Of a DNA stretch of 64,000 nucleotides, positions 12,213 to 34,200 are shown piece after piece. This stretch comes from Xiphydria camelus. Taxonomy: Eukaryota > Arthropoda > Insecta > Hymenoptera > Xiphydriidae. Where the stretch lies: NCBI GenBank assembly GCA_963678675.1, contig OY783200.1, positions 10,036,917-10,100,916 of the forward strand. Direction: 5' to 3'. A program made the position numbers and the translations under genes. Every line of letters starts with the position of its first letter. Position 1 is the first letter of the stretch. Under the pieces are notes generated by a model. That model saw only the letters and a program-made list of their open reading frames with translations, was not told the DNA's origin and searched no databases.

Positions 12213-12723
12213 TTATTTGATAAGGTGTTCAAATTGTGCACCATTCACTGCTTGATAATGTGCCAATCTTGTATAAAAACCGTCTATCACGTTGTTCAAT
12301 TGATTTTCATTCACAAGCTGAATTTCGTCGATTATCCGCTGCCTGAGCTCATTAATATCCCGTGGTTTAGTTTTGTAAACCCTAGTTTTCAGGTGACCCC
12401 AGAGGAAGTAGTCAAGAGGCGTTAAATCAGGTGACCTGGCCGGCCACTCAATTGCGCCTCGCCTTCCGATCCATCTTAGAGGAAAAACTTCATCCAAATA
12501 TGCCCTGACTTCGCGGCCGAAATGGGGAGGCGCCCCATCTTGTTGAAACCATGTCGATGCATAACCTTCACCGACGGCTCCATGAATGCCAGGCACAATC
12601 AAATTTTGTAACAATTCCAAATATTTTCTGGCATCTAGATTACCATCTATGAAATATGGACCTATCACTTGTCTACCAATTATTCCGCACCAGACGTTAG
12701 TCTTTTCTGGTGTTTGGGTGTGA
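12213..12723 (-). pseudogene. C-terminal half of DD41D mariner transposase
   Basis: The frame gives NHTQTPEKTNVWCG, the second catalytic Asp in WFQQDGAPPHF, and the third in SPDLTPLDYFLWG. I count 41 residues between these two Asp, which defines the DD41D (rosa/Visitor) group of Tc1/mariner. This half has no internal stop. It was separated from its N-terminal half by the polymerase element inserted at the TTA at 12724-12726. The half cannot act alone. Confidence 0.9.
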
Positions 12724-13324
12724 TTACACAGGCACACAAAACAAAAGGCCTTGTTCCCGGAACCAGACCAGTATATCTTTATGTTTTTGGAGTCGCTGAA
12801 TCCGAATCCGGTGTCTGTTTGTCTCCATCACGTCACATTTTTTTTTAATCTCAAAAAACCATCAATAGTTCATGATTTTCAAAAAGTTAATAGACTTAAG
12901 CCAAATTCGCTATAGGGGTTTTTTTGGGTCGCTGATCACGAATCTGAAATAGGATTTCAAAAATGCAAAATGGCGGATCCAATATGGCGGACGAGATTTT
13001 CGAAAATCGACGGATTCATGCCAAATTTCGTATAGGGTTTTTTTTTCGATCGCTAATGACGAATATGAAGTTATATTTACAAAAATTCAAAATTTTCGAA
13101 AATCTTATCCTCCATATTGGATCCGCCATCTTGAATTTTTTAAATCTGACTTCAGATTCATGATCAGCGACCCAAAAAACCTCCTTATACCAAATTCGGC
13201 ATGAATCCGTCGATTTTCAAAAATATCGACCGCCATATTGGATCCGCCATCTTGAATTTTTGAAATCCGATTTCAGATTCGTGATCAACGACCCAAAAAA
13301 CCCCTTATAGCGAATTTGGTTTAA

Positions 13325-16115
13325 GGGGTAAGGCCACCATGTGCGTCAAGAAAGAAGGACGATTTTGTGCATTTTTTTTTAGGAGTAGTGTAAAAGCTAT
13401 AGAATTTTCTTATAAAGTACTTTATCAAGTATCTTCAAAGCTACTAAAAAATATTTTGTTTTTAATTTTTGGTTAAGAAATGGCCGTTCCAGGGTCCGGT
13501 TTCTACGATGAATTTTTTGTGGAGGTCCAAAACGGGCGAACCGGCTGTACCCACAAGCGTGAACCTAGAACAAAAATCCAAAGATTTTTCTTTAATATAT
13601 ATCATAAACTAATAGACCACGTAGGGGATTTTGAAAATATTGATTTTTCGAGAAATGGTGAGTATATAAAAGAAAAGTTCACGTTTTCGCATAAGAATTT
13701 CATACATAATCGTTTATAAAACAAAAAGTTTACAACTTATCGAAAAACCCCTACGTGGTCTATTAGATTATATAGGTATAAAGATACCCTCAAAATTGCA
13801 AGGCAATCGATAAAGATTTGTAGCCGCTATCGGTTCGCCCGATTTGAAATTTCGTGTTCTGAGAAAAACGCGTTTAAAGTTTTAAGTAACATTTTACGGT
13901 CGAAAATTATAGTATACCTTTAATCCGCGATGCCTGCACCGTATAGTTGGCCTTCTATGTTAATGTTGAGTTCTTCTTCTTCTTTTCTGGCTGATTTTGC
14001 GGCAATTCGAGCTGTTTTTGCAGCCTCAGTCAGCGATCGGTTCGAAAAATCGACGCGGAGTTCGTCCGCCTCAACGCAGAAATTGTAGCAATTCCTTCCA
14101 ACTGTCATGTCCAACTGTCGTATAACTTGCATTATACTACAAATTCCATCGTTGAAAGTGCACACGGCAAGATTCCCAGCAATATCCAGTACGGTTTTTC
14201 CGCTTGACGTAGATTTTGGGGACATTGACCACACCGTTGCGTTGAAACTTTCATTGCTATTTTGCGTAAAACCACCTAAGCATCGATTTAGAAGGTCGTC
14301 GCTGCTCAACTCTTCGTAGATTGGTTTAATTGCGTCGAAAACTGTTTTCGATGGAGCCGGCTTGTGTAAAAAAGTACTAATTGATGTATTGGTGGCTTTT
14401 GCCTTTTGCCACGAACACCATGAATTTTCACCAGCTGGACACTTGCTGTGTTGAGGATTTTCATTCGTTGACAGCTTGTGATATAACGTCGCCCAAATTT
14501 CATTTCTCATTTTTTCCACAGAGTCGTGATTTCTGCGAATAGCCAAACCATAATAAATTGAGAGCTCGTCGACAAGTTTATTTGTTAATTTTCCTTTTCC
14601 GCCGAGACCGCGTACGTTCTTTTTTAAATTTCTTAGTCTAGTGCCCATTCTTTTCTGCACGTGATCGATGCATTCTTTTTTATGTATAACAAAGCTTTCA
14701 TATGGTTCAGACTTCAAAAGACCTGTAAAGGTTTTACTATCGCCATCTCCAATGTAACTGCCGTATTTTACTTGATATAAAGTTTCAGAGCGCTGAAACA
14801 TTTCGATAACTGCATCTACCTCCATTTTACCAGCCGACCCGGTGTGATTTATTTGACAATCATTTTGATGTATTTCAAGCCACTCATCATACTCTGCAGT
14901 ATCACTTATTTTTCTCCAATATTCGCAGGCCTTGCAGTAACTGGATTTTATAATTATATCGATTACTTTCCCAGTATTCCATCCGATCAAAGACACCAAA
15001 CCGAACAATGATGAAAATCCCCGCTTTCTCCACGAACCGTCTCCTGATACTATCAATTCATTTGGTAAACCTTTTCTTGCATTTTCTTCTTTTTCTATTT
15101 TTACTGCATTTTCCATGCTAGCCTTGGAAACGCGTTCAGTAGCATCACAAATAATGTTGACTACTTTATCATAAAATGAGTGAAATATTGGCCGAGGAAG
15201 TTCCATAAAAGCACAGAACTTCTTCATTCCGTGTAAACCTACTCCAAGCAGTCGCATGGCTATAATAATTCTTCTATTGATGTCATATGCTTTGTTATTG
15301 ATGAGTGGACAATTTGGAATTTCAGTTTTCGCACACTTTTCACAAGATAGAACTATTTTAAAACCAAGTCCGCGTATACTACTTTCAGTAAATGTGACGC
15401 CTGAGTCGCATATTTTACACTTCACTACTGACGAAATTGTTGAAAAAACAGCCACAAAATTGATGAAACGATAACCGAACGATGCATCAACTTCGATATT
15501 ACGAGCATCGCCACTTAGCTTCAATTTCCTAGCGGACGTGCCGACGCTTTCGGAGGAATCGAGTGCCTCCGCTTCATAACGGTTTGCAGGTCGCTTTCGT
15601 GACATAGACGGCTTTTTAAACAAACTTCTTCCACCTCGTTTAGCTTTATAGCCACCATATTTCGATTTATCACACATTTTATTCACTAATTTCAGTAACT
15701 CGTAGTAAAAAGATAAACTGATGAAACACGAAGCAAAATCACGCACGCGGCGTCCGTCTGACAGCTAGAATGACTTTACATAAAATAAATGGCCGAATAG
15801 TACTGCTAATGACACGAGCCTCAACTCCGATAATACGTCTCAACATGCATTTAATTAACAGTTAGCCCACTAATCGGGGAGATCTCCCTATTCAATGTAG
15901 TTTGGCTCGCCCGAGCGCGGTGGAAACCGTATAGTTGGTTATGGCGCTAAGTGTTAATGCGCCGCGCGGCGTCTCTGTAAATTGACGTAAACGACCGATT
16001 CGAAATTTTTTTTGACTACGAAACCTTTTTTTTTCTTATTCTTGAGGGTTTAAGGAAGGTTTTAAGCTAATAAAAAAAAATCGATTTTTGAAAAGTTCCA
16101 TGGTGGCCTTACCCC
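13325..16115 (-). mobile_element. Kolobok-type DNA transposon, apparently complete
   Basis: Terminal inverted repeats ggggtaaggccaccatg (13325) and its complement (ends 16115) are directly flanked by TTAA on both sides (13321-13324 and 16116-16119). The empty site inferred from the foldback arms contains a single TTAA. TTAA duplication is known for Kolobok and piggyBac; the transposase here is not piggyBac-like. One intact transposase frame fills the element. Confidence 0.82.
13920..15677 (-). CDS. Kolobok / Mutator-like-domain transposase
   Basis: 585-residue frame if started at the ATG 15675-15677 (MCDKSKYGGYK); an upstream in-frame ATG at 15746 is possible. The N-terminus is basic and should be nuclear. 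A zinc site of CxxC type lies near residues 87-115 (CKIC, CEKC). The predicted catalytic acids sit in SGDGSWRKRG (Asp about 213) and IGDGDSKTF (Asp about 311), followed by KKECIDHVQKRMG. This is the arthropod family that domain databases call Mutator-like transposase domain. It cuts and pastes the 2.8 kb element around it. No internal stop is visible. A paralogous protein with an added nuclease domain lies at 31227-34714. Confidence 0.88.
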   Translation of the reverse strand: MCDKSKYGGYKAKRGGRSLFKKPSMSRKRPANRYEAEALDSSESVGTSARKLKLSGDARNIEVDASFGYRFINFVAVFSTISSVVKCKICDSGVTFTESSIRGLGFKIVLSCEKCAKTEIPNCPLINNKAYDINRRIIIAMRLLGVGLHGMKKFCAFMELPRPIFHSFYDKVVNIICDATERVSKASMENAVKIEKEENARKGLPNELIVSGDGSWRKRGFSSLFGLVSLIGWNTGKVIDIIIKSSYCKACEYWRKISDTAEYDEWLEIHQNDCQINHTGSAGKMEVDAVIEMFQRSETLYQVKYGSYIGDGDSKTFTGLLKSEPYESFVIHKKECIDHVQKRMGTRLRNLKKNVRGLGGKGKLTNKLVDELSIYYGLAIRRNHDSVEKMRNEIWATLYHKLSTNENPQHSKCPAGENSWCSWQKAKATNTSISTFLHKPAPSKTVFDAIKPIYEELSSDDLLNRCLGGFTQNSNESFNATVWSMSPKSTSSGKTVLDIAGNLAVCTFNDGICSIMQVIRQLDMTVGRNCYNFCVEADELRVDFSNRSLTEAAKTARIAAKSARKEEEELNINIEGQLYGAGIAD

Positions 16116-16776
16116 TTAAGTCCATTAACTTTTTGAAAATCATGATCTATTGAAGTAGTTAAGCTAGGAGAGTTCTGGGCCACCCTGGGGACCCTAGACT
16201 TATCCCCGCCCACTCCTAGGGACCCTAGCCTAACCCCGCCCCCGGAGTGCCGCCATTGGTAGCCTAACCCCGCCCCCGGAGTGCCGCCATTGGTAGCCTA
16301 ACCTTACCCCCCCCCACTCGGTTACCCCCACGCCCACCTGGGGACCCTAGCCTTACCCCCACTCCTAGAGCGCCGCCATTGGTAGCCTAACCCCGCCCCC
16401 GGAGTGCCGCCATTGGTAGCCTAACCTTACCCCCGCACTCGGTTACCCCCACGCCCACCTGGGGACCCTAGCCTTACCCCCACTCCTAGAGCGCCGCCAT
16501 TGCTAGTCTAACCTTACCCCCACCCCCGATTACCCCCACGCCCACCTGGGGACCCTAGCCTTACCCCCACTCCTAGAGCGCCGCCATTGCTAGTCTAACC
16601 TTACCCCCACTCCTAGAGCGCCGCCATTGCTAGTCTAACCTTACCCCCACCCCCGATTACCCCCACGCCCACCTGGGGACCCTAGCCTTACCCCCACTCC
16701 CGGAGCGCCGCCGTTGCTAGCCTAAACTTACCCCCACTCCGCCCAACCGATCCACGCGAGCGATGACGTAACAAGG

Positions 16777-16812
16777 CGCGCGCGCGCACGCGCACGCGCA
16801 CACGCGCATGCG
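16777..16812. other. alternating CG/CA run in the left inverted repeat
   Basis: An uninterrupted alternating purine-pyrimidine stretch, the kind that can adopt Z-DNA. It follows TGACGTAA (16764-16771). A mirror copy is in the right repeat near 26335-26371. Confidence 0.6.
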
Positions 16813-17145
16813 AGCCTCACCGGTCCTCCGACCGCGAATCTCGCGGATCCCCTAGCCTTACCACCAATCCCGAGGCTCCGCCATTGCTTGTCTAACCTTA
16901 ACCCCACCCCCGAGGCGCCGCCATTGCTAACCTAGCCTTACGCCACACTCGAGGCGCAGCCATTGCTACCCTAACCTTACCCCTACTCCCGGAGCAGAGC
17001 CGTTGCCCCCAACCCATCCCACCCCCACCCCGGCCCGTGCGAGCGATGACGTCATAGCCCGCGCACGCGCTCATGCAAGCCTCACCGGTCCTCCGACCGC
17101 GAATCTCGCGGATCCCCTAGCCTTACCACCAATCCCGACAATACG

Positions 17146-17205
17146 GTCACGCCACCAGTCACACCGCGATCGCGAAACGACAACATGTCTTCGGAACAGT
17201 GCAAG
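17146..17205 (+). promoter_or_regulatory. 5' module of the polymerase gene, shared with the reverse-strand gene at 21678
   Basis: The segment containing caccagtcacaccgc, cgaaacgacaac and the start ATGTCTTC matches, with few changes, the region immediately upstream of and across the start of the 93-codon reverse-strand gene (complement of about 21667-21715). The two genes therefore seem to share promoter, leader and the first residues (MSS-E/D-Q). Confidence 0.7.
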
Positions 17206-20200
17206 GATATCGTGAACGCCCATCGACGGGCGTTCGAGCTCATCGCTCGCAAAAGAGTAGATCACAACGAGATCACGCAGTGGATCCAACGTGGGACTGT
17301 GAGTTTGCGGGTACTCGGACGATTGATGCGCCGAGAGGGAGCATCGGTGTCCGCCAAACAGCGGTACCTGGCTGCAATTCGACAAGTGAAGTGTTACAGT
17401 CAAAAACTCAAAAGCCTGCTCGTGAGAGGCGGACGTCTGGGTCAACGCGGGCAGAGACGCGGCGATCGTGTCTCGTGGGAGGATCTCCAGTCGGCGTTCG
17501 ACGGACGCATCCGTACCGGGGTAATCGTAAATCTACAAAACTTGGATCCCACAGCCTTCCTACAGGACGCGCTGGCCCTCTTCGCACCGCGCATCAAGAA
17601 CACGCTCATGAGGGAGAATGCGCTGAAGGTGAATGCTGTGTTGGAGGGTGAATACAGCATCGTCAAGAATGACGAGACGATCGTTGAGCTCAAGACCTTC
17701 GCCACGAGAAACGTCCCGATCCTGCAGACGACCGATTTGACGCAGTGGTTCGTCGAGAATGTGCGAGATCCCATTCTCCGGCAAATGGAGGAATTCCAGG
17801 AGCGGGACTCGGGTTGGACGCTCCGAGTCGTCATCAGCTTGACCATCTGTGTGAATCGGTACAACCCGATGCGAGGCAGTTCCTACCTGGAACTTCCACA
17901 GCTTATCAGGAAAAAGAAAGCATGCGTCAACGTGCAGAACACCGACGACCATTGTTTCAAGTGGGCGCTCCTTTCTGCATTGCATCCTGTTGATTGGGGC
18001 AGGCACCCCAGCCGTGTGTCAGTGTACAAACCGTACGAAAACGAACTGAACTTTGTGGGCATAGACTTCCCGGTGATGCCGAGAGAGGTTCCAAAGTTTG
18101 AGAAGCAGAATGAGCTCTCGGTCAACGTCTACATTCTGCTGAAGCGGAAAGAAAAATTTGAGGTCGCTCCCACCCACGTTACTTCGCACAAGAAGGACAA
18201 GCATGTGAATCTCCTCATGCTTCAAGATCGCTACGTCGATGAGGGAGATGAGGAGGGGGAAGAGAACGAGGGTGACGAAACTCCCATCGTCTGCCACTAC
18301 GTGTGGATAAAGGACCTTTCTCGGTTGGTCAGCGCACAACTTTCAAGAAGGGCTGGAAAGAAGTATATCTGCGATCGCTGTCTGCACTACTTTCGGAGTA
18401 CTGAAAAGCTGGCAGCCCACGAAGTCGACTGTGGACTGATGAACCGGTGCAAGGTCAAGATGCCCGCACCGATGTACAGCACTTTGACGTTTAAGAACTT
18501 CAACTTCAAGGAGAAGGTGCCGTTTATCGTCTACGCAGACTTCGAGTGCCTCCTGAAGAATGTCGACCTGCGGCAGACGAGCAAGACGAGGGTATGCCAA
18601 GTGCACGAACCGTTCAGCGTGGGATACTACGTGCGGTGCAGCTACGACTCCACGTTGTCCCGCTACAACAGCTTTCGGGGTCCGAAACCCGCCGAATGGT
18701 TCGCGCGCGAACTCTCTGAGCTGGCTGAGCAAGTCGAAGGAATCCTCCAGCACACTGTACCCATGCACCCGCTCACGGTGGGGCAGGAGGAGGCTTTTCG
18801 CGCTGCCGACACCTGCCACGTTTGCGAGAAGCCGCTGCTGGATGTGAAGAGAGTTCGGGACCACTGCCATCTCACCGGCAGATACAGGGGTGCAGCGCAC
18901 GAGGGCTGTAACCTGAATTATCAGGATTCGCGCACCATTCCCGTAGTCTTCCACAACCTCAGCGGATACGACAGCCACCTCATCATCAAGGAAATTTCCA
19001 CCTGCATCGACGGTCGGATCAACCTCTTGCCTCTGAACATGGAGCGATACGTCTCGTTCACCAAACATCTCAAGGATAGCGATATAGCCCTTCGATTCAT
19101 CGACTCCTTCCGCTTCATGGCATCATCGCTGGAGAAGTTGGCGTCTTACCTCACGGAGGCGCCGATAACCAAGAGTCAGTTCTCGCAGATCCGAGCCGAA
19201 CAGTTTCAACTGCTGAGGCGGAAAGGGGTCTTCCCCTACGAGTTTATAGACGCGTGGGACAAGCTGGACGCGACGGAGTTGCCGACCAAGCAACAGTTTC
19301 ACAGCCGTCTCAACGGCTGCGGTATCTCCGACGAGGACTACGAGCACGCCCAGAGGGTCTGGAGGGAATTCAACATCGCAACTCTGGGCGCGTATGCGGA
19401 CCTCTACCTAAGACCGACGTCATGCTGCTGGCCGACGTTTTCGAGAACTTTCGCGACAACTGCATCGAAGCGTACGGTTTGGATCCAGCCCATTACTACA
19501 CCACCCCCGGCCTCACGTGGGACGCAATGCTAAAGTACACCGGCATAGAGCTGCAACTCCTCACCGACATCGACATGCTCTTGTTCGTCGAGCGAGGTAT
19601 TCGAGGCGGTGTCAGCCAGTGCAGCAACCGTTACGCCAGAGCCAACAACGTGTACATGAGGGACTACAACCCCGAGGAGGAGACAAAGTACCTCATGTAC
19701 TACGACGTTAACAATCTGTACGGCTGGGCGATGACGCAACACCTCCCGTACGGAGGCTTCGAGTGGGTTGAGAACCTCGACAAAGACGACTTCCAGTGGA
19801 ATGTGCCCGACGACTCGCCCATCGGATACATACTCGAGGTGGACTTGGACTATCCGGAAGCCATCCACGACGCCCACCGAGACCTGCCGCTGTGTCCCGA
19901 GCAGATGAAACCGCCGGGCTCGAAGGAGTCCAAGCTTCTGACGACGTTGTACCCGAAATCGCGCTACGTCATCCACTACCGCAACCTCAGGCAAGCTCTC
20001 GAGCACGGTCTACGGATCGCCAACATCCGCAGAGCCCTGAAATTCGACCAGTCACCGTGGCTCAAGACCTACATCGACCTCAACAGCGACATGCGGAAAC
20101 GAGCCCGAAACGAGTTTGAGAAGAACTTGTTCAAACTCATGAACAATGCGGTGTTCGGCAAGACCATGGAGAACGTGCGAAAACGCGTTGACGTCAAACT

Positions 20201-20897
20201 CGTAACCAAGTGGAATGGCAGATACGGGGTCGAAGCACTCATCGCTAAACCCAACTTCCACAACCGAGCCGTTTTTGCGGAAAACCTCATAGCCGTGCAA
20301 CTCAACAAGATCGAGGTTCTGATGAACAAGCCTATCTACGTGGGGTTCTGCGTGCTCGACTTGTCCAAGATCTGCGTTTACGAATTTCACTACGACTTTA
20401 TGATTCCAACCCTCGAGAGCAATTGCAAGCTGCTCTATACTGACACCGACAGCCTCATCTACGAAGTGCGGGCTGTCAACATCTACGACGTGATGAAGCG
20501 TCACATTGGGCGTTTCGACACGTCCGACTACCCCGCCGAGAACGCCTTCGAGATGCCGCTGGCGAACAAGAAGGTGGTCGGTCTCATGAAGGATGAGTGC
20601 AGCGGCCAGATAATGACGGAATTCGTCGGACTGCGCAGCAAAATGTACAGCGTGCGGGTCAACGGCGAGGACCGCATAAAGAAGGCCAAGGGCGTAAAGA
20701 CTGCGGTGCTGAAGAGGACCATCGATTTCGACGACTACGTCACCTGCTTGCGCCAAAACACGACCCAACACCGATCGCAGTACCTCTTTCGGTCGAGATT
20801 GCACGAAGTGCAGACTATCGAGCAGACCAAACTCGCGCTCAGTCCGCACGACGATAAGAGGTGCCTGCTTCCCGACACCACGGACACTCTGCCCTGA
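17185..20897 (+). pseudogene. protein-primed family B DNA polymerase with endonuclease VII-like insert, one frameshift
   Basis: Polymerase expected to replicate a linear DNA with inverted ends from a protein primer. The ATG at 17185 (MSSEQCKDIV) has a good context. The N-terminal ~430 residues have no domain I recognise; a CxxC...H zinc-finger-like segment lies near 18368-18430. Then come exonuclease motif I YADFECLL (18532-18555), an endonuclease VII-like block (CHVCEKPL, then RDHCHLTGRYRG, 18813-18920), exonuclease II HNLSGYDSHL, exonuclease III (TDVMLLADVF), motif A DVNNLYGWAM (19704), motif B (MNNAVFGKTMENV, 20139) and motif C YTDTDSL (20436). All catalytic residues are present. A one-base deletion at about 19408-19412 shifts the frame between exonuclease III and the preceding residues, so the gene is broken or the base is an assembly error. 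Total length is about 1,237 residues. Confidence 0.9.
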
Positions 20898-21077
20898 GGA
20901 CACTGTAGAATTACTAGTGTAAATATGGATGTGGATGAGTAATAGGGTTACGATTGTAAATATAGGTAGGATTGCAAATGTAAATATAGGTGTGCGTGCG
21001 TGTGTGAATCGTCGATAATTCGACACAGTGGAATACCAATCAGTTAGCGACGTGGTAGATGGGTTGTGCCGAGAGGT

Positions 21078-21229
21078 GGAGACGCCCCGCGCTCCATGAT
21101 CAAGGCTCGCGTTTATTGTCAAAATGGATAATTTCTTTTGCACAAATAAAGGCGGAGACGCCCCGCGCTCCATGATCAAGGATTACGTTTATTGTCAAGA
21201 TGAATAATTTTTAGAACAAATAAAAGGTT
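21078..21229. repeat. 76-bp tandem duplication after the polymerase gene
   Basis: Two units starting ggagacgccccgcgctccat (21078 and 21154). Each ends with an AATAAA signal (near 21144 and 21216), so both could serve as polyadenylation sites for the polymerase transcript. Confidence 0.75.
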
Positions 21230-21396
21230 GAGGAATCAAATGTTGTAGGTGTTATTATTTAGAGGAGGTATTAGAGGATTTTTTGGAGTTGCAGGAGGAG
21301 CAGAATCAACGCACATGCATTTTTGAATTCGCTTTTATTTCAGAAACTGCTTACACGCTCGTAATGATAAATGCGATGCTGCGAGGGCCCCACAGT

Positions 21397-21678
21397 TTAC
21401 ATCTGTTGAGCTCTTACGGATGCATGTGGAGTGTGTATGACACACCCGTCGATTATTTTATAAAATTTATCTTCAATGGAAAATATCGCACCTGAAGACT
21501 GCCGTCGTGCCTCGGATAGGACAAAGCCTGCGCTCATAACGCGATCGAACGTCCAATTATCCCATTCCGCGGGAACTCGTAGAAAGCAGACGGTTAATTC
21601 CGTTGAGAAAACTTGGTCGTTGCGGACTTTCGAATGTGAACCCGTCTCGAAGCGATTTCGATGCTGATCGGAAGACAT
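21397..21678 (-). CDS. small conserved-looking protein of the polymerase element, unknown function
   Basis: 93-codon reverse-strand frame starting at the ATG 21676-21678 (MSSDQHRNRF). I prefer this start because the upstream sequence and first codons match the polymerase gene's promoter and start. A reverse-strand AATAAA lies near 21333, about 60 bases past the stop, convergent with the polymerase gene. No known domain is visible. Its core (VPAEWDNW, then FYKIIDG) loosely resembles the PxIWR ... IDG ... Y pattern of the two spliced genes at 23780 and 24931, so it might be a distant relative; this is weak. Whether it could be a terminal protein or a regulator cannot be told. Confidence 0.55.
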   Translation of the reverse strand: MSSDQHRNRFETGSHSKVRNDQVFSTELTVCFLRVPAEWDNWTFDRVMSAGFVLSEARRQSSGAIFSIEDKFYKIIDGCVIHTPHASVRAQQM

Positions 21679-21903
21679 GTTGGCGTTTCGAGGTTGCGTT
21701 GTGACTGGTGACGCTAGCGCGATGCTTGAACAAAGACGGCGTTGGTGAGGCAAACGCGTTCGTGCCTGTTGAGAAGCTGTGCAGCCGCCGCCGCGATTCC
21801 AGGAACAGCACCGCGGTAAACAGTTCTTGGAAAAAGGTCTATCATGCTTATAATGCGCAGCAAAACAAGTCGGGACCTGCACGAGCTGGATCCAGGGTCA
21901 CGA

Positions 21904-21950
21904 TGACGTCATCAGCTCGGTTAAAAGCAGCGGTGCGGCCGATGACGTCA
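21904..21950. promoter_or_regulatory. two TGACGTCA palindromes in the divergent intergenic region
   Basis: Perfect TGACGTCA at 21904-21911 and 21943-21950, each next to a copy of caagtc(g/a)g(g/a)acctgcacg. They lie between the reverse-strand gene (start 21678) and the forward gene (start 22161). The same octamer is in both long inverted ends. It equals the CREB/ATF-type site of animals. Confidence 0.6.
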
Positions 21951-22099
21951 TCATCCCCAGCAAGACAAGTCAGAACCTGCACGTATACCTATACTGCAAT
22001 CACTCGGGTTTGACGCGTAGGGCTTATGACATCTGATTGGTTGTTGGTTATTGCTAAGCAACCGAACGCTTTCCCCCACTAATGAACTACGATTGCCCA

Positions 22100-22105
22100 T
22101 ATAAA
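22100..22105 (+). promoter_or_regulatory. TATA box of the 106-codon gene
   Basis: TATAAA in catataaacc, about 55-60 bases before the ATG at 22161, leaving room for a short leader. Confidence 0.6.
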
Positions 22106-22160
22106 CCCCGTATCTTTGGTGTGGTGACATCAGGCGCAGCTAGAGAAACAGCTGAGAAAA

Positions 22161-22481
22161 ATGGACCTCTCAAAACTGAACGAGCTCGGCAGATCGGCTG
22201 GATATCTGGAGACGAAAAAGTTGGCTGAGCTGGAAATCGAGCAGGAGTTCCTGATTACTGGTATGAAGAAAGTAACCACAAAATATGGCCTCAAGATCGT
22301 GGCGGAGCTGCAGAAGAGCTTCACAGTCTTCCTACCATCACGAATCAACAAACTCTTCAAGGACAGCGATGATGATGATGACGAGGAGTTCAACAAGCTG
22401 GTGAAGGCCTGTGGTGAAAACAAACTCTATCTGAAGTGTCTCGGTGGAAAGTACAATTTGTTCGAGTTTATCATGAAATAA
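22161..22481 (+). CDS. small protein, possible OB-fold single-strand DNA-binding protein
   Basis: 106 residues, beginning MDLSKLNELGRSAG. The middle alternates hydrophobic strands (EFLITGMKKVTTKYGLKIVAEL, split by a KYG turn), then FTVFLPSRINKLF, an acidic loop of Asp/Glu, and a final strand pair with a GKYN turn. This strand pattern resembles OB-fold proteins that bind single-stranded DNA, which would suit protein-primed strand displacement replication; it is an inference from pattern only. A TATA box precedes it, and AATAAA overlaps or directly follows the stop (22477-22490). The frame is intact with a clean start. Confidence 0.65.
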   Translation: MDLSKLNELGRSAGYLETKKLAELEIEQEFLITGMKKVTTKYGLKIVAELQKSFTVFLPSRINKLFKDSDDDDDEEFNKLVKACGENKLYLKCLGGKYNLFEFIMK

Positions 22482-22929
22482 AATATTCATAATGACTGAA
22501 TGAATTTGTGTCTTTAATAACCCCGTCGAAAGAAATAATTTCTCTCTCTCTCAACGATTTTTCATCGATGTACTTTAAAAGTTAAATTGCAACTCGTCAC
22601 TCGAGGCTGTGTTTGCTGAGGTGGATATAACCTTAACTCTAGTTTCTCACAACTCATGATCTTTAGCGTGCGTATCTACCTCCTCCCTCTTACAACCAAA
22701 GAAATAATTTCTCTCCCTCAACGATTGATCATTGCTGAACTTCAAAAGATAAATTGCAACTCATAGTGGATAAGGTTCATCGTGACAGAAGCATTCTGAT
22801 ATTTCATTATTCTGGACCAGCTCTAATTTCTCTCAACAACTGTTCATCTTCCACCGCAGCCCTCTAAAAATTGCTGCATTTAGTTCATTTATGCCTTTAT
22901 CCCTTTCGTTAAGGCTAACAACTATAGTC

Positions 22930-23220
22930 GGTATTCATGGGACAACCTGTTTGTGTGTGGGTTTCAACAGTATCCGAGTATCAGCAAGACAGCATATGTG
23001 TGTGTGCGCCTTCTGCAGCCGACGTCCGCAAGACGGCCTGTGTACGGGTGGTGACTCTAGTTGGCATCCGCGCGATATCTGTGTGGGTGCCTCCTGCAGC
23101 CGGCGTCAGCAAGACGGTCTGTGCGTGCGTGCGGGACCCGCGAGCCGGTCTGTGTACGGGTGGTGACTATAGTTGGCGTCCGCGCGATATCTTCATATAT
23201 CGAGCGCAGACTATAATCGA
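22930..23220. repeat. imperfect tandem repeats, no gene
   Basis: Units containing gtgtacgggtggtgactcta and ccgcgcgatatct occur twice (near 23040-23082 and 23151-23192). Shorter ctgcagccg(a/g)cgtc...caagacgg copies also recur. Open frames here are repeat by-products. Confidence 0.6.
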
Positions 23221-23779
23221 TGTGTATCCGACCACCTGTGTAGGCTCTCGCCGGTAGAATCGAAGAGCCTCTCTTGGCTCTATCGAACTATATTGAATTA
23301 AATCCTGCTAGAAATATATTCTACGCACAAATCAAGCTTCAATTTGTTATGTTGTTCTAGTTGCATCGAAAGACTGCCGATATGTAAAGTGTACACTTCA
23401 CGTCGCGATGATCCGCGGGTGGCGGTACTATAGCGGAGCGGGCTGCCGTAAGGAAAGGGTTAACATCTCCGTCGAAATACGTAATTTCTTTTCCCCTCTC
23501 AACGATTACTAATCGTTGTACATCGGAAACGTAGCTCGAGTTTTATATTCTGATTTCAAAGTTATAGCCCCGATATGTCAAATACGTCGATCTGCCCCTC
23601 GGAAGTGTATATTTACGAATCGCCACGCGAGACTGTTTAGTTCTACCAAGTCGATAAGGATCGATGCAACTTGATACTCAATTATTGTTACAACAAATTT
23701 TGGTTAGGTCCAGCTCAGACTCTCGAGACGCAATTCGTTAGTCTGCTTAATACGATCGCAACGAGAACATTGAGTTACA

Positions 23780-24217
23780 ATGCCGAATGCGCCAAGTTCC
23801 GACTCTGATTCGAGCGTGAAAGAGTACAATCCAACCCGTTATCTGGGTTTTCGATTTCGCGGACGTATAATAATTTGCCCAAAAATCTGGAGAGTGTTTA
23901 GTGTTGACAAGCGTTGTCAATTGAGGAGAGCTGTAGAGGAATCCTTTGAAGTAAATGGTATCGACGGTGTTCATTGCATAGACGGATGCCTATACGTAAT
24001 GCTGGGAAGCTTCTTAACACCGGTAAGAAATCAATAAAATCTTCTTCCTCTTATTATTTTTCTTCAACTTCTTCTTTTAACCTCGGCTTGATAATTTGCA
24101 TCTTTACAGAAACTGCGCGGTCTGGCTGCGAGATGTGCCGCTGCGCGGGAAGCAGCTCGCGCCACTGAGGAGGCTATTGACAACAACGATACAGAAGACG
24201 AAGAAGAAGACGAATAA
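23780..24217 (+). CDS. small spliced gene, paralogue A (unknown function)
   Basis: Two exons: 23780-24022 and 24110-24217, with a GT-AG intron of 87 bp (ccg/gtaag ... tttacag/aaa). The product is 116 residues. It starts MPNAPSSDSDSS, has a core EYNP ... PKIWRVFSVDKR ... IDGCLYV, and exon 2 encodes KLRGLAAR, an Ala-rich helix and an acidic tail of Glu/Asp. It is a clear paralogue of the gene at 24931, with the intron at the same place and phase. No known domain is recognised. The upstream ~300 bp are also duplicated ahead of the other copy. A GT microsatellite follows the stop. Confidence 0.72.
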
Positions 24218-24930
24218 GAAGAAAATGTGTGTGTGTGTGTGTGTGTGTGTATGTATGCATAGGTTTTTTGAATTAAAGTGTGTACGTATGAGTTTTTGTA
24301 ATAAAGTAATGATGCGCATGTGTATGTGTATGTGTGTGTGTGTGTGAGCATGATTTTTCTAATAAAAGTGTGTGCATATGTGTGCACATGATTTACAATC
24401 AATTTGTTTATATTTTCTCAACCCTCTTCGAACACCGTTGGAGCTGCGTACCAGCGTTGGGATAAACTGCGCGATTTTAATGAAATTGCACCGAGTTACG
24501 GGTAATATGAATGAAAAAATCACGAGCAAAGGACTGTATTTGAAGTGTCAAACGTATACCCAAGCACACAAACATATCCCTATCGCTCCTGCTAAAACCG
24601 CCCTCCAAGCGCTGTGACGGTGTTTGTAAGCAGCTTCAGCGTTGAAACCCGACCCCATCAAAACTCCACCAAGACTCCGCGCGCCGAGGCTCTGGCGCGA
24701 GTATTTAACACCCCCGTTGAAAGATATAATTTTTCTCTCTCAACGCCTGCTCGCTGAGGGTCCTTGGAAACGTATATTTACGAATCGTCGCGCGGACCTG
24801 TTTAGCCTAGCCAAGTCGATATGGACTGATACGATTTACTGCAATGGACACAACCCCGAGAGGAGAAATTTCGTCTAGGTTCAATCGCATCTCTCGAGAC
24901 GCAGTTCGTTACTCGCAGTCAAGACGTGAA

Positions 24931-25359
24931 ATGCCGATTCCATCTAATACGCGTGTGTATCCGCTTCCCCCGGATAATGTGTGGGAATATAACCCTCACG
25001 GTATTGATATAACTTGGTTTGAGGAGGCAGCAATAGTATTGCCAAATATTTGGCGTATACATACGTTGGAAAAGCGTGGGCTTTTGAGAGAAGCTCTGCA
25101 ACAATCTTTACAAGTGTACGGTCGCGACGGCGATCACGTGATAGACGGATCCATATATGTTATAAACGGATTTAATCACCTTGTGCTGGTAAGAATATCT
25201 TTTTTTCTTTTTTCTTTAATAAATTTGGTATACATTATTTATTTAATTTTTTTTCAATTCTGCTTACAGAAACTACGGGGTCTAGCAGCGCGGCGAACTG
25301 CCATCGCACAGCAGCTCGCAGAGGCTTTGGACGAGGAGGATAGGAACGGCGTGCCTTAG
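24931..25359 (+). CDS. small spliced gene, paralogue B (unknown function)
   Basis: Two exons: 24931-25188 and 25270-25359, intron of 81 bp (gctg/gtaag ... cttacag/aaa). The product is 115 residues. I chose the ATG at 24931 (MPIPSNTRVY) because it aligns with the start of paralogue A; an in-frame ATG at 24844 would add 29 residues. The core is EYNPHG ... LPNIWRIHTLEKRGLLREA ... IDGSIYVING. Exon 2 starts KLRGLAARR and is helical, ending EDRNGVP. Splicing at an identical phase-0 position in both copies supports real protein-coding genes. The function is unknown. Confidence 0.74.
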   Translation: MPIPSNTRVYPLPPDNVWEYNPHGIDITWFEEAAIVLPNIWRIHTLEKRGLLREALQQSLQVYGRDGDHVIDGSIYVINGFNHLVLVRISFFLFSLINLVYIIYLIFFQFCLQKLRGLAARRTAIAQQLAEALDEEDRNGVP

Positions 25360-25885
25360 TGCTATGTGTCTGTGCGTGTGTGTGTGTGCGTGTGTGCGTG
25401 TGTACGCGATTTTTTATTTAACCCTCCCGCGATCTCGAAAGGGTTAGTTCATTGGCGTGATCGTCGCGCGAAATCCCGAGGGTGTGAGCAGACAAGAGCA
25501 CCCATATACCGCGCTCACTCGCACGCGCGGGGTTTTGCACGACAGTCGCGGAAATGAAATAATCCTTTCGCTGCCGCAGAAAGGTTAAATTGTGTGCGAA
25601 TGTGTGCAAGGACGAAGAGGATGGGAACGGTGTGCCTTAGTGCTATGTGTATGTGCGTGTGTGCGTGTGTACGCGATTTTTTATTTAACCCTCCCGCGAT
25701 CTCGAAAGGACTAGTTCATTGACGTGATCGTCGCGCGAAATCCCGGGGGTGTGAGCGGACAAGGTCACCCATATGCCGCGCTCACTCGCACGCGCGGGGT
25801 TTTGCACGACAGTCGCGGAAATGAAATAGCCCTTTCGCTGCCGCTGAGAGGTTAAAGTGTGTGCGAATGTGTGCAAGGATGAAAT
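25336..25885. repeat. tandem duplication of the 3' end of paralogue B
   Basis: A ~280-bp unit beginning at the last codons of paralogue B (agga(t/c)(g/a)ggaacgg(c/t)gtgccttag) is repeated from about 25616. Each unit contains gattttttatttaaccctcc and gcgcggggttttgcacgaca. The second copy carries only the gene's tail. Confidence 0.75.
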
Positions 25886-26084
25886 AGAATAGTGATGTGA
25901 GTATGTGTGTGTTCGCCGGTGTGTGAGCAATTATTTTTAATAATGTGTGTTCGCCGGCGTGTGAACGATTATTTTTAATAATGTGTGTGTGTGTGTGTTT
26001 ATTTCTAAATGCTTTTTATATTAAACAAATTTTTTCATTAATTTTGTTACCTGCTTCCTAACCCTATTTCAAATTTTCTCCAAC

Positions 26085-27162
26085 CTGCATGAGGGGGTGG
26101 GGGGTCTGTAAGGCGTGCGCGCCTGTCGATAAGCTGTGACGTCATCGCTCGCGTCGATCGGTTGGGTGGGGTGGGGGTAAGGTTAGGCTAGCAATGGCGG
26201 CCCTTCGAGAGTGGCGGTAAGGCTAGGGTCCCCAGGAGGGTGTGGGGGTAATCGGGGGTGGGGGTAAGGTTAGACTAGCAATGGCGGCGCTCTAGGAGTG
26301 GGGGTAAGGCTAGGGTCCCCCCATGACCGAGGTTCGCATGCGCATGCGCGTGTGCGCGTGCGCGCGCGCGCCTTGTTACGTCATCGCTCGCGTGGATCGG
26401 TTGGGCGGAGTGGGGGTAAGTTTAGGCTAGCAATGGCGGCGCTCCGGGAGTGGGGGTAAGGCTAGGGTCCCCAGGTGGGCGTGGGGGTAATCGGGGGTGG
26501 GGGTAAGGTTAGACTAGCAATGGCGGCGCTCTAGGAGTGGGGGTAAGGTTAGACTAGCAATGGCGGCGCTCCAGGAGTGGGGGTAAGGCTAGGGTCCCCA
26601 GGTGGGCGTGGGGGTAATCGGGGGTGGGGGTAAGGTTAGACTAGCAATGGCGGCGCTCTAGGAGTGGGGGTAAGGCTAGGGTCCCCAGGTGGGCGTGGGG
26701 GTAACCGAGTGGGGGGTAAGGTTAGGCTACCAATGGCGGCACTCCGGGGGCGGGGTTAGGCTACCAATGGCGGCACTCCGGGGGCGGGGTTAGGCTACCA
26801 ATGGCGGCGCTCTAGGAGTGGGGGTAAGGCTAGGGTCCCCAGGTGGGCGTGGGGGTAACCGAGTGGGGGGGGTAAGGTTAGGCTACCAATGGCGGCACTC
26901 CGGGGGCGGGGTTAGGCTACCAATGGCGGCACTCCGGGGGCGGGGTTAGGCTAGGGTCCCTAGGAGTGGGCGGGGATAAGTCTAGGGTCCCCAGGGTGGC
27001 CCAGAACTCTCCTAGCTTAACTACTTATTGATGGTTTTTGAGATTAAAAAAAAATGTGACGTGATGGAGACAAACGGACACCGGATTCGGATTCAGCGAC
27101 CCCAAAAACATAAAGATATGCTGGTTCTGGGAACAAGACCTTTTTTTTTTTGTGTGCCTGTG
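26085..27162. repeat. right long inverted repeat of the polymerase element
   Basis: Uninterrupted inverted copy of the left end, with the same GC-rich units in reverse complement (ggcggcgctctaggagtg, ggtaaggctagggtcccc). It has a TGACGTCA at 26137-26144, TTACGTCA at 26376-26383 and an alternating gcgcgcgc run near 26335-26371. Copy number of the internal units differs between the two ends. Confidence 0.87.
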
Positions 27163-27165
27163 TTA

Positions 27166-31226: not shown

Positions 31227-34200
31227 TTATATAGTACCGACTTCAGGTTCTCTCACCTGCATTGACCTTGTCATTCTAGGATCAATCATTTCAGGTAATA
31301 GAACTTCATTGTAACAAAATGTAAGTTTCGGCAACATTTTTCGTTCCCAAAACTCGTCATCTCTTTCAATTACTTCATAGTGAATGTCCCTCGGCGTCTA
31401 AACGACAAAAAAACATTTCTTTCGCTCAGTGATTTGCAATTGCCCCTGGACCTGATAGTAATAATCACTAGACCTCTTCAATTTCATCGTTTTTTTGTCA
31501 ATACAAAAGTTCTTCAGCTTATAACAAGCTTCAGGGATGGTCATGTTTCGAGCAGATTCTGGACACTTTACTTCCACTATACTATCTTCGCCGATAACGG
31601 AATCAGGAGATGCTCCAAGGAAACCATACGTCTTGTGAACAAATAGTCCGCATGGTTTAATTTCATGGCCAGTATGCTCCTTAAAGCACTGCAGAGCTAT
31701 TCCCTCATTAGCAGAGCCATATTGCATAGCTTTGCATCGAAAATCGTCATAGAGAAGTTTTTTTGCCACTGGTGCCCACTTTGAAGTAGGTCTCCTCTTG
31801 CAGACATACCCGAAATGAGAAGCAGTTAGCCTTTCTTTTCTGGCAATGTACCATTTTTCATTTTCTGCCTGACCTATTATTTCGATCTCTAAACTTTTTA
31901 TTTCGGCTGCACTTAGCGACAGTTTTCTGAGTTTTTCCTGTTTCAAAATATCCAGTTCCATTTTGTCCATGTCCAATTGCAGCGCTTGCTCGCCGTAATC
32001 TTGAAGACCCTTATTTTGTCTTTTTCGGTCATCAGATCCGTAGTGTCGCTGCCCAGATTGTTGTGTTCGAAAAAGGGCTTTTCGGCATGCCAATCTTCTC
32101 TTCTCTCGTCTCTGGCACGTCTTCTTGACGATTCCGGCAGGACTCTTCTTCATGACTGACTTCATTGTCTCGTAATGCCATAAGGGCCCAATTTGGTAAT
32201 CAAGTCCAGCTGCTTTCGTTCGGTGGGTAAAAGATCCTCTCTTCCCCCTGTTCACTTGCTTGCCACCTGTAAATTTCGCGACAAGTGACATGTAATTCTC
32301 AGCTGCGTTACTCGTACTATTTGTTATCAGCTGTGAACTTTTGGCGATTAGAGGCTGTAGGCAAAATCGAACTTTTTCGTACGCGTAAGATTTCTCTTTA
32401 CTGAGATCACATGTTTCCCCAAGTTTGGAACAAAAATATGGTTTACAGTTCATGTGAATACCAAACACGTGTAAAGGGCCATTCTTCAAATCGTCTTTTA
32501 ACGCAGTCACATCCCCTTCATCCGAATAATGAATTATAGCCCCTCGTGCTGCAGTCTTCAGCCGTTTAATTATGCCAACAGTGAAAATATTTTTAAACAT
32601 CGAGGACTCCTTTTGCAAGGCATAAAGCTTCTTAGTATAATTCTTTACAGCATGGTTCGCGCATTCCACCTTTTCAATGGACCGACCATATGAAACGGAA
32701 GTTTTTAATTTAAAAAAAACACTGGAATCTCCATCGCCTACTACTGTATGGTATTCTATGCCATGAAGCAGTTTACTTCTTTGAAACGCTTCCACCAGCA
32801 TATCACTTTCCATAGATGCTGAAGGGCCGTCCCAGTTTTTAAAACAATTGTCATGGGCAGCGTCTAATTCATTTTTACTGCGGTATTCGCACATACTGCA
32901 GTACTTCGATCGTACACCAACGTCCAGCAGTTTCTTCGTCTTCATTCCAATGACGCATGCAACTCCGCAATTGGCACTGTAACGATGGCCGTGACTCCGT
33001 TGGGACCATCCTCCATCCACTACTACAGTAATGAATGGTGCACCATTCTCCGAAACGTCTCCTGCCTCAATTGCTAACTTTTTTTCCTGCTTACCAGCTT
33101 CTATCATACTTTCGTACAATACATCGCGCCATACCTGCAATGACATTAGAAAAGCATACCTAATGCAACTCATAATCAAGTAAATGCAGTGGCATTTAAT
33201 AAAAGATTTACTACAATACTGATTGTTACGATGGGAAACGAATCAAAATAATTTCACAGTTTCTCTTGCCTAATATAAAATAGGTAATGTTATGTGATAG
33301 CAATAAATGCACCTACCTTTCCAAGTTTGGATTCCGTTTGTCTAAAGGTTTTTGGGCATATTGATTTTATCTCCATGGCTGACAGGACCTCTTCCATATT
33401 CTCATGCCCAGAACCGATTGCGGCAAATCCCCAAACTGTTTTCTCCGTAAGTGTCAATGAATCGCGTTCGTTTTGTACTTTCGCAGAAGATTTCTTATAT
33501 GGGTGGCTGTAGATGGTAACTGCTTCCATACAGTATGGACATTGAAGATGTAGCTGCCACATCATATTCGACACGCTGGATGAGGTAAATTCCATGTAGC
33601 CATTGTTACTCTTACTACATGAAAGCCGATGAAGTTCTAGCTTTCTAATTGACGTTACAAAATGTTGTCCATCGACTATGTAATTTCCTCTTTCAATTTT
33701 ACTGACGTTCTTCACAACTGCAGGCGCTTGTTCAATCAGGAAAGGTAATGTTGCTCTGTAAACGTTACAATAATTATTATTATTTGTCTTCTTTCATCTG
33801 CAAAAATGTGTAAGTGAAATATGAGAATTAACAGGAATGGAGTAATATTTTAACAAGGACGGTATGTACTTTTTCAGTGATGCCAACTTACATTGTAGGC
33901 TCTATGCTCAATTCAGATTGGGATGTAGATGAACTTTTCGCATCATGGTGAAACAGTTCAACTTCGATAGGAAATAGTGATTCAACCTTTGCTACTTCAG
34001 GACCTGGTTGTTTTCCCATACATGAATTGCTAAAACGAAAAGAAAATTTAATACAAAAATCTGCCTTCTACGAAATTATCATACTAGTTCTAGGTTGTAT
34101 TTATTTTATTGCTTGTGTTACCTTTCCGAACATGCTTTCAGCTTATTTTCGGATGAAGTTACATCCATTTGCTGCGGTGTTTCTGATGAATTCAATTTCC

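Follow-up and report, generated by a model that had tools for sequence, protein, structure and literature searches.

Polintons (Mavericks) lie at the border between transposons and DNA viruses, and their ends begin with AG. Integrases of the rve family work at the ends of linear DNA, with duplication of the target, and it is at such ends that protein-primed polymerases start. In the excerpts of the literature cited here, Polintons are single elements of 15 to 20 kb, or typically 15 to 25 kb (PMC4028283, PMC6431247), and the rve integrases of Polinton-like elements typically make a 6-bp duplication (PMC12220804). The same excerpts describe capsid-less Polintons, nine elements in which capsid, protease, and ATPase are jointly absent (Krupovic et al. 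2014, PMC4028283); adintoviruses, all of which encode an integrase, one with a chromodomain-like end (PMC11071296); and Vesanto virus, many segments of which carry similar terminal repeats, a likeness viewed cautiously by its authors (PMC11071296, PMC8363768). Here, we analyzed a window of 64,000 nucleotides from Xiphydria camelus (Hymenoptera; assembly GCA_963678675.1, contig OY783200.1, positions 10,036,917 to 10,100,916 of the forward strand), which contains a 10,872-bp element with a family B DNA polymerase gene (PolB), hereafter the polymerase element. We consider it probable that this is the polymerase part of a Polinton/adintovirus-like system divided over separately integrated elements with common inverted repeats. 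Searches of an open-access library, which lacks many subscription papers, listed no divided Polinton, and novelty is unproven.

Like a Polinton, the polymerase element has a family B polymerase, a start with AG (AGTAGTTAAGC), inverted repeats of ~0.85 kb, and a 6-bp target duplication. It differs in that no rve integrase, capsid, ATPase, or protease was found within it (fragments only of the last three in some other copies). Partner elements carry the rve integrase, A32 ATPase, and double-jelly-roll capsid of Polintons, and no element with polymerase and integrase together was found among those read here. As in capsid-less Polintons, capsid, protease, and ATPase are absent together; here, however, the integrase is absent too, and the missing genes lie in separate elements with the same ends. 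PolB is of adintovirus type and the partner integrase has a chromodomain-like end as in adintoviruses, whereas hexon and integrase are carried, in the copies read, on elements separate from PolB. Drosophila Vesanto virus and bidnaviruses offer a parallel in their segmented genome, similar terminal repeats, and adintovirus-type PolB, as far as these are described in the excerpts (PMC8363768, PMC11071296). They differ in being small single-stranded DNA viruses with other capsid and helicase genes. We know of no integration of these viruses with 6-bp duplications.

The polymerase element is the innermost of three nested elements. It lies inside the right inverted repeat of a transposon with a PF20700 transposase, which itself splits a transposase gene that we take to be of the mariner type (a family scan gave no match).
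12213..12726, minus strand: C-terminal side of the mariner transposase, as a fragment into which the nested insertions went (flanks joined with one TTA read through)
12724..12726 and 27163..27165: left and right TTA, the target site duplicated by the outer PF20700 transposon (flank joining)
12727..16153: outer PF20700 transposon, left and main part, continuing at 27032..27162 (restored inverted repeat)
13920..15746, minus strand: PF20700 Mutator-like transposase of the outer transposon (Pfam, 1.7e-72)
16148..16153 and 27026..27031: left and right TATTGA, the 6-bp target site duplicated by the polymerase element (flanks compared)
16154..27025: polymerase element of Polinton type, 10,872 bp long (the closest copies cease to match at these borders)
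16154..16989, plus strand: left inverted repeat of the polymerase element, a GC-rich minisatellite (self-alignment)
26168..27025, minus strand: right inverted repeat of the polymerase element (self-alignment)
27032..27162: remainder of the outer PF20700 transposon, from the distal side of the right inverted repeat (restored inverted repeat)

An earlier sequence-only reading had placed the borders of the polymerase element at 12727 and 27162, with CACAGGCACAC ends, a 3-bp TTA duplication, and inverted ends of ~1.1 kb. These borders, ends, and duplication belong to the PF20700 transposon, which measures ~3.56 kb. The mariner frame is continuous across the junction once both flanks are joined keeping one TTA, which bears out the earlier claim that a mariner gene was split between TTA and TTA. 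Excising 16154 to 27025 together with one TATTGA restores the 174-bp inverted repeat of the PF20700 transposon, with identity at 160 of 167 aligned positions (one right-flank base was omitted from this alignment and appears as a 1-nt gap). The polymerase element itself has the ends AGTAGTTAAGC...GCTTAACTACT. Its long inverted repeats are GC-rich, as had been claimed, yet they measure ~0.85 kb (815 aligned positions, 96.4% identical). The reverse order of nesting, with the PF20700 transposon inside the polymerase element's repeat, is ruled out by the end points in the closest copies. The genes of the polymerase element are as follows.
17185..19533, plus strand: PolB, first open frame; N-terminal region with zinc-finger-like and exonuclease motifs and an endonuclease-VII-like insert; homology stops near 19410
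19254..20897, plus strand: PolB, second open frame; palm with DxNNLYG and DTDS motifs (PF03175, 2.9e-19); homology starts near 19410
21397..21678, minus strand: gene C, 93 aa, oriented divergently from the 106-aa gene (found in other copies; selection; negative paralogy test)
22161..22481, plus strand: 106-aa gene (genome matches, selection)
23780..24217, plus strand: gene A, predicted exons 23780..24022 and 24110..24217
24844..25359, plus strand: gene B, paralogue of A, predicted exons 24844..25188 and 25270..25359

Other copies agree with these borders. The source genome (357 Mb, 38 contigs) contains 142 matches to the 106-aa protein, fragments included and mostly stop-free, and both sides were fetched for ten other polymerase-type copies (20 loci). 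The outer 143 bp of the PF20700 transposon matched none of these loci at E 1e-3. Of the eight halves of the four closest copies, six stop resembling the window at 16145 to 16154 or 27025 to 27027; in the remaining two (L011, L013), the matches listed stop earlier, yet the end motif is present. A perfect 6-bp duplication was observed in six of the nine polymerase-type copies with both ends located: the window, C14:13.09, C24:8.10, C10:24.05, C14:15.44, and C17:13.2 (contig and position in Mb, here and below). In the C29:18.4 copy, the duplication matches at five of six positions. Two of the ten fetched copies, C17:11.5 and C28:9.5, fall outside this count because both ends were not located. Among four further copies fetched as end slices, the right end was located in two and the left end in none, with one missing left end lying just beyond its slice. 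Independent copies with 6-bp duplications had been named as an outcome that would refute the sequence-only reading, and such copies were observed; the CACAGGCACAC repeat is absent from them. The stretch with the C28:9.5 copy also holds another PF20700 transposase (L029:6336-8222), with no match to the window's CACAGGCACAC repeat. One polymerase copy is on a small unplaced contig, C31 (15,890 bp, L018/L019), where the flanks of the two ends are unrelated; it holds a piece of the partner ATPase, its final 72 residues (97%), and is perhaps a recombinant of polymerase and partner parts.

The same ends also delimit elements of a second kind. The end motif AGTAGTTAAGCTAGGA, with at most one mismatch, was detected 60 + 60 times in the genome and 3 + 2 times in a reversed control. 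When 49 exact AGTAGTTAAGCTAGGA ends were paired by eye (plus then minus, at most 25 kb apart), 16 pairs resulted, with spans of 6.1 to 12.4 kb, in contrast to the sizes given for Polintons; none reached 13 kb. Eight pairs enclose a 106-aa match, seven an integrase match, one neither, and none both. The pair with neither is a 6.5-kb element at C10:28622750-28629232. Longer candidates have paired ends of the AGTAGATAAGC type: C6:17067787-17090163 (22.4 kb) and C1:17889364-17903068 (13.7 kb), both with integrase matches inside, and C6:26717749-26731243 (13.5 kb). Four integrase-type exact pairs were read.
L045, 9,261 bp: integrase, acidic protein, ATPase (residues 1-251 of 313), protease-like protein, 244-aa protein, double-jelly-roll capsid, 262-aa protein
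L043, 8,927 bp: gene set of L045 minus the ATPase
L042 and L044, 6,349 and 6,464 bp: integrase, acidic protein, ATPase

PolB had no match in any of these four elements. Pfam matches of the partner proteins were rve (2.7e-12), Pox_A32 (5.5e-7), and DJR-like (6e-121), with Chromo (0.0034) under its cut-off; the protease label was given by eye, with no Pfam match, and the 244-aa protein is likewise without a family match. The L044 integrase has one stop. All four elements are flanked by perfect 6-bp duplications (TGACTA, TACGCC, AACCTT, and CACCAT). Over the first 300 nt of either end, they are identical to the window's left end at 244 to 296 positions, and L042 aligns with the window over 906 nt at 99%. 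Both parts occur as several copies that are 97 to 100% identical. The other outcome named as refuting the sequence-only reading, a Polinton integrase and capsid between the same ends, was thus also observed, in elements without the polymerase. In the capsid element L043, the acidic protein contains a very long acidic (Glu) repeat expansion (L043:3100-4400).

Conversely, the absence of integrase, capsid, ATPase, and protease noted in the sequence-only reading holds for the window element and, as to integrase and intact capsid, for close copies. The partner integrase had no match at E 1e-3 in the window or in L010-L033, where not every copy was read to both ends, and the other partner proteins had none in the window element at the same threshold. 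A viral_contigs scan with a single PolB palm piece gave no match, and the same scan with a palm alignment gave one contig, the relative L001 (IMG/VR). In a tblastn search with the integrase, ATPase, and capsid candidates of L001, nothing better than E 1 was detected inside the window element; one match at E 0.006 lies outside it, near window base 500. The larger open frames scanned in the window and other copies contained no rve; the 30 frames chosen from other copies matched long interspersed nuclear elements (LINE), Tc5-type, DDE_4, PF20700, or host-gene-like proteins, or nothing. L001, used as a control, gave rve and A32 matches, so the scan was able to detect them.

Genome-wide, the separation of the two parts rests on the 106-aa gene and the integrase as markers, with PolB checked in the elements read. 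The neighbour count took in 88 of the 142 106-aa matches and 50 of the 126 integrase matches. No integrase match among the 50 lay within 12 kb of any of the 18 full-length 106-aa copies with at least 86%, and 1 of the 18 best-scoring integrases (at least 94%) had a 106-aa gene within that distance. At C14:14.0 (L030/L031), one of the older loci where the 106-aa gene has an integrase nearby, the 106-aa gene, gene A, the 262-aa gene, capsid, the 244-aa protein, and protease pieces were found, with an integrase piece just beyond and no PolB match in the 16.7 kb read. C28:7.22 (L032/L033), another such locus, contains two 106-aa genes, genes A and C, PolB, and two 262-aa genes.

The polymerase gene that gives the element its name is of family B, as had been claimed from the window alone. 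Its reading is split over two frames in the window, and homologues cross between them near 19410; in L011, PolB is a single open frame of 1297 codons. In the protein search, 3457 of 7976 scored candidates passed E 0.001. Among the best 120 of these 3457, the highest match is at 61% (Venturia canescens); PolB is homologous to insect proteins, and many of the closest matches are from wasps. Residues 230-760 of the first frame are 52% identical to PolB of a Megastigmus wasp adintovirus. In a palm-piece tree of 91 sequences (5 own copies, 85 homologues, and L001), our copies grouped as a single clade, to which P0002 and P0005, both proteins of source 'lgn', are joined (support 0.97). A PolB profile had no match in the PDB at 0.01. 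Judged from its sequence, PolB is of the protein-primed kind and would be expected to prime with a protein. One of its homologues, P0080, bears the label of a weevil's Rickettsia endosymbiont; our guess is that host or virus-like DNA in that assembly is its probable source.

Ratios of nonsynonymous to synonymous substitution rates (dN/dS) were estimated for genes of the polymerase element. For the PolB palm of window-type copies, dN/dS was 0.10 to 0.14 against C29:18.4 and C28:7.227 and 0.24 to 0.30 against C17:11.5; for the N-terminal piece, it was 0.19 to 0.27 against C17:11.5 and C28:7.227. The 106-aa gene gave 0.07 to 0.18 against diverged copies (with some synonymous sites saturated and the ratio undefined against C28:7.227), and 0.26 to 0.43 between the window and the copies nearest to it. 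In the near pair C14:14.0/C28:7.225, the same gene gave 0.59. Gene C gave 0.17 to 0.20 against C28:7.227 and 0.22 to 0.86 among near copies. For gene A, dN/dS could not be estimated in most pairs. As judged by these ratios, PolB, gene C, and the 106-aa gene are under purifying selection, and have thus been kept functional although the element has no integrase.

Taking these data together, we favor a division of labor between the two kinds of element. Starting at the shared ends by protein priming, the polymerase part (PolB, C, 106-aa, A, and B) would replicate its own DNA as well as that of its partners. Partner elements would supply an integrase acting on the ends of both kinds, making a 6-bp duplication on each, and perhaps a capsid. 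Since the ends are nearly identical, one integrase and one polymerase could serve both, complementing each other like segments of a divided genome. We hold more tentatively, though as quite possible, that the two are a working pair, with one PolB, one integrase in trans, and possibly separate packaging, kept while several subfamilies diverged within a single insect lineage. If the reading is true, a multipartite DNA virus can arise within a host genome through complementing deletions, and the locus offers a test case for integration in trans, with one integrase acting on the near-identical ends of two element kinds.

Several observations weigh against a division of this sort. An integrase lies near the 106-aa gene in 13 of the 88 copies, in older subfamilies, and at least nine further pairs were seen by eye among rows outside the 88-copy count (C17:7.70, C1:22.80, C1:24.05, C6:24.58, C14:21.55, C24:13.01, C17:14.04, C17:19.01, and C17:19.04); in the older subfamilies, the 106-aa gene is therefore no marker of the polymerase element and is part of integrase elements too. 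The integrase search scored 125 of 963 first-look candidates and may miss a poor integrase. Two of the nine polymerase-type copies lack a matching duplication (C31, 1/6; C14:14.59, 3/6), and several have a stop or broken frame in PolB. Partner-gene remnants persist in polymerase copies, with ATPase pieces in L019, L033, and L025, the 262-aa gene in L020, L023, L026, and L033 (pieces in L019), and a 29-aa capsid fragment in L033; remnants of the 262-aa gene and integrase are found in L042/L044. On sequence grounds, such remnants in both kinds point to an origin by deletion from a common ancestor.

These remnants, and the proximity of 106-aa gene and integrase in older subfamilies, are what would be expected if both kinds were independent non-autonomous deletion products of an ordinary unsplit Polinton or adintovirus, whether one lost from this assembly, one missed by the searches, or an exogenous virus; all functions would then have come from it in trans. 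DNA transposons commonly give rise to non-autonomous derivatives. However, none of the 16 exact pairs holds both markers or reaches 13 kb, each part persists as several nearly identical copies, and selection on PolB is seen between subfamilies. We regard this explanation as a serious contender, although a rather doubtful one, and infer that the divided form works and has lasted, beyond being a set of deletion products.

An integrated segment of a multi-segment, bidnavirus-like single-stranded DNA virus would account for the PolB, a type that bidnaviruses have, and for the terminal repeats, given those on many Vesanto virus segments in the excerpts available (PMC11071296, PMC8363768). The partners, however, hold a double-jelly-roll capsid, an A32 ATPase, and an rve integrase, and the insertions have 6-bp duplications, making this origin very improbable. 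No Pfam match to an NS1-type helicase or parvovirus-type capsid was detected among the frames scanned from the elements read. Although the outer inverted repeat and TTA duplication do exist, it is hardly credible that polymerase transposons or linear replicons without integrase form a class of their own, marked by CACAGGCACAC ends and a 3-bp duplication, since the outer repeat is missing from all 20 loci of ten copies, the closest copies stop at 16154/27025, the duplications are of 6 bp, and removing the polymerase element restores the outer repeat. What survives of the class proposed in the sequence-only reading is an element with a polymerase and no integrase or capsid; its 3-bp duplication gives way to 6-bp duplications and to partners with integrase and capsid.

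Each of the four closest copies has genes C, 106-aa, A, and B, whereas most of the more diverged copies fetched gave no match to A or B. The predicted pair of genes sharing a promoter is borne out by the divergent gene C and 106-aa gene. As for the two spliced paralogues that had been proposed, the relationship of A and B stands (Smith-Waterman score 132 versus a best of 46 among 1000 shuffles), while the splicing is a prediction, with the putative intron at an equivalent place in both. Gene C as a third paralogue was not significant (227 and 404 of 1000 shuffles match the score). An oligonucleotide/oligosaccharide-binding (OB) fold had been suggested for the 106-aa protein; this finds no support, as no Pfam family exceeded its cut-off, a single-sequence model reached a predicted local distance difference test score (pLDDT) of 37, and the best PDB profile match (E 0.63) was not an OB protein. 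For A/B, the model reached a pLDDT of 41 and the best PDB match E 0.81. Protein searches gave no match for the 106-aa protein (E 0.01, 8 candidates) or for A/B (E 1, 7 candidates), by a method that needs common 5-residue words.

The motif TGACGTCA, which resembles a cyclic AMP response element (CRE), has five occurrences in the window, at 17047, 20189, 21904, 21943, and 26137, all of them within 12727-27162. The sites lie at the inner edge of each inverted repeat, in the promoter shared by gene C and the 106-aa gene (two sites), and in PolB; judging by these positions, common control of the element's promoters is possible. At C28:7.22 (L032/L033), the two 106-aa genes form a convergent pair ~2.5 kb apart, and 106-aa matches at 16394034 and 16396511 of C29 (16.39 Mb) have the same orientation and spacing.

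Elsewhere in the window, a CACTA-like mobiliser was sought near 49-52 kb, and none was established. At 31398-33179, one open frame combines a PF20700 Mutator-like transposase domain (9.7e-65) with a YqaJ nuclease domain (6.9e-18).

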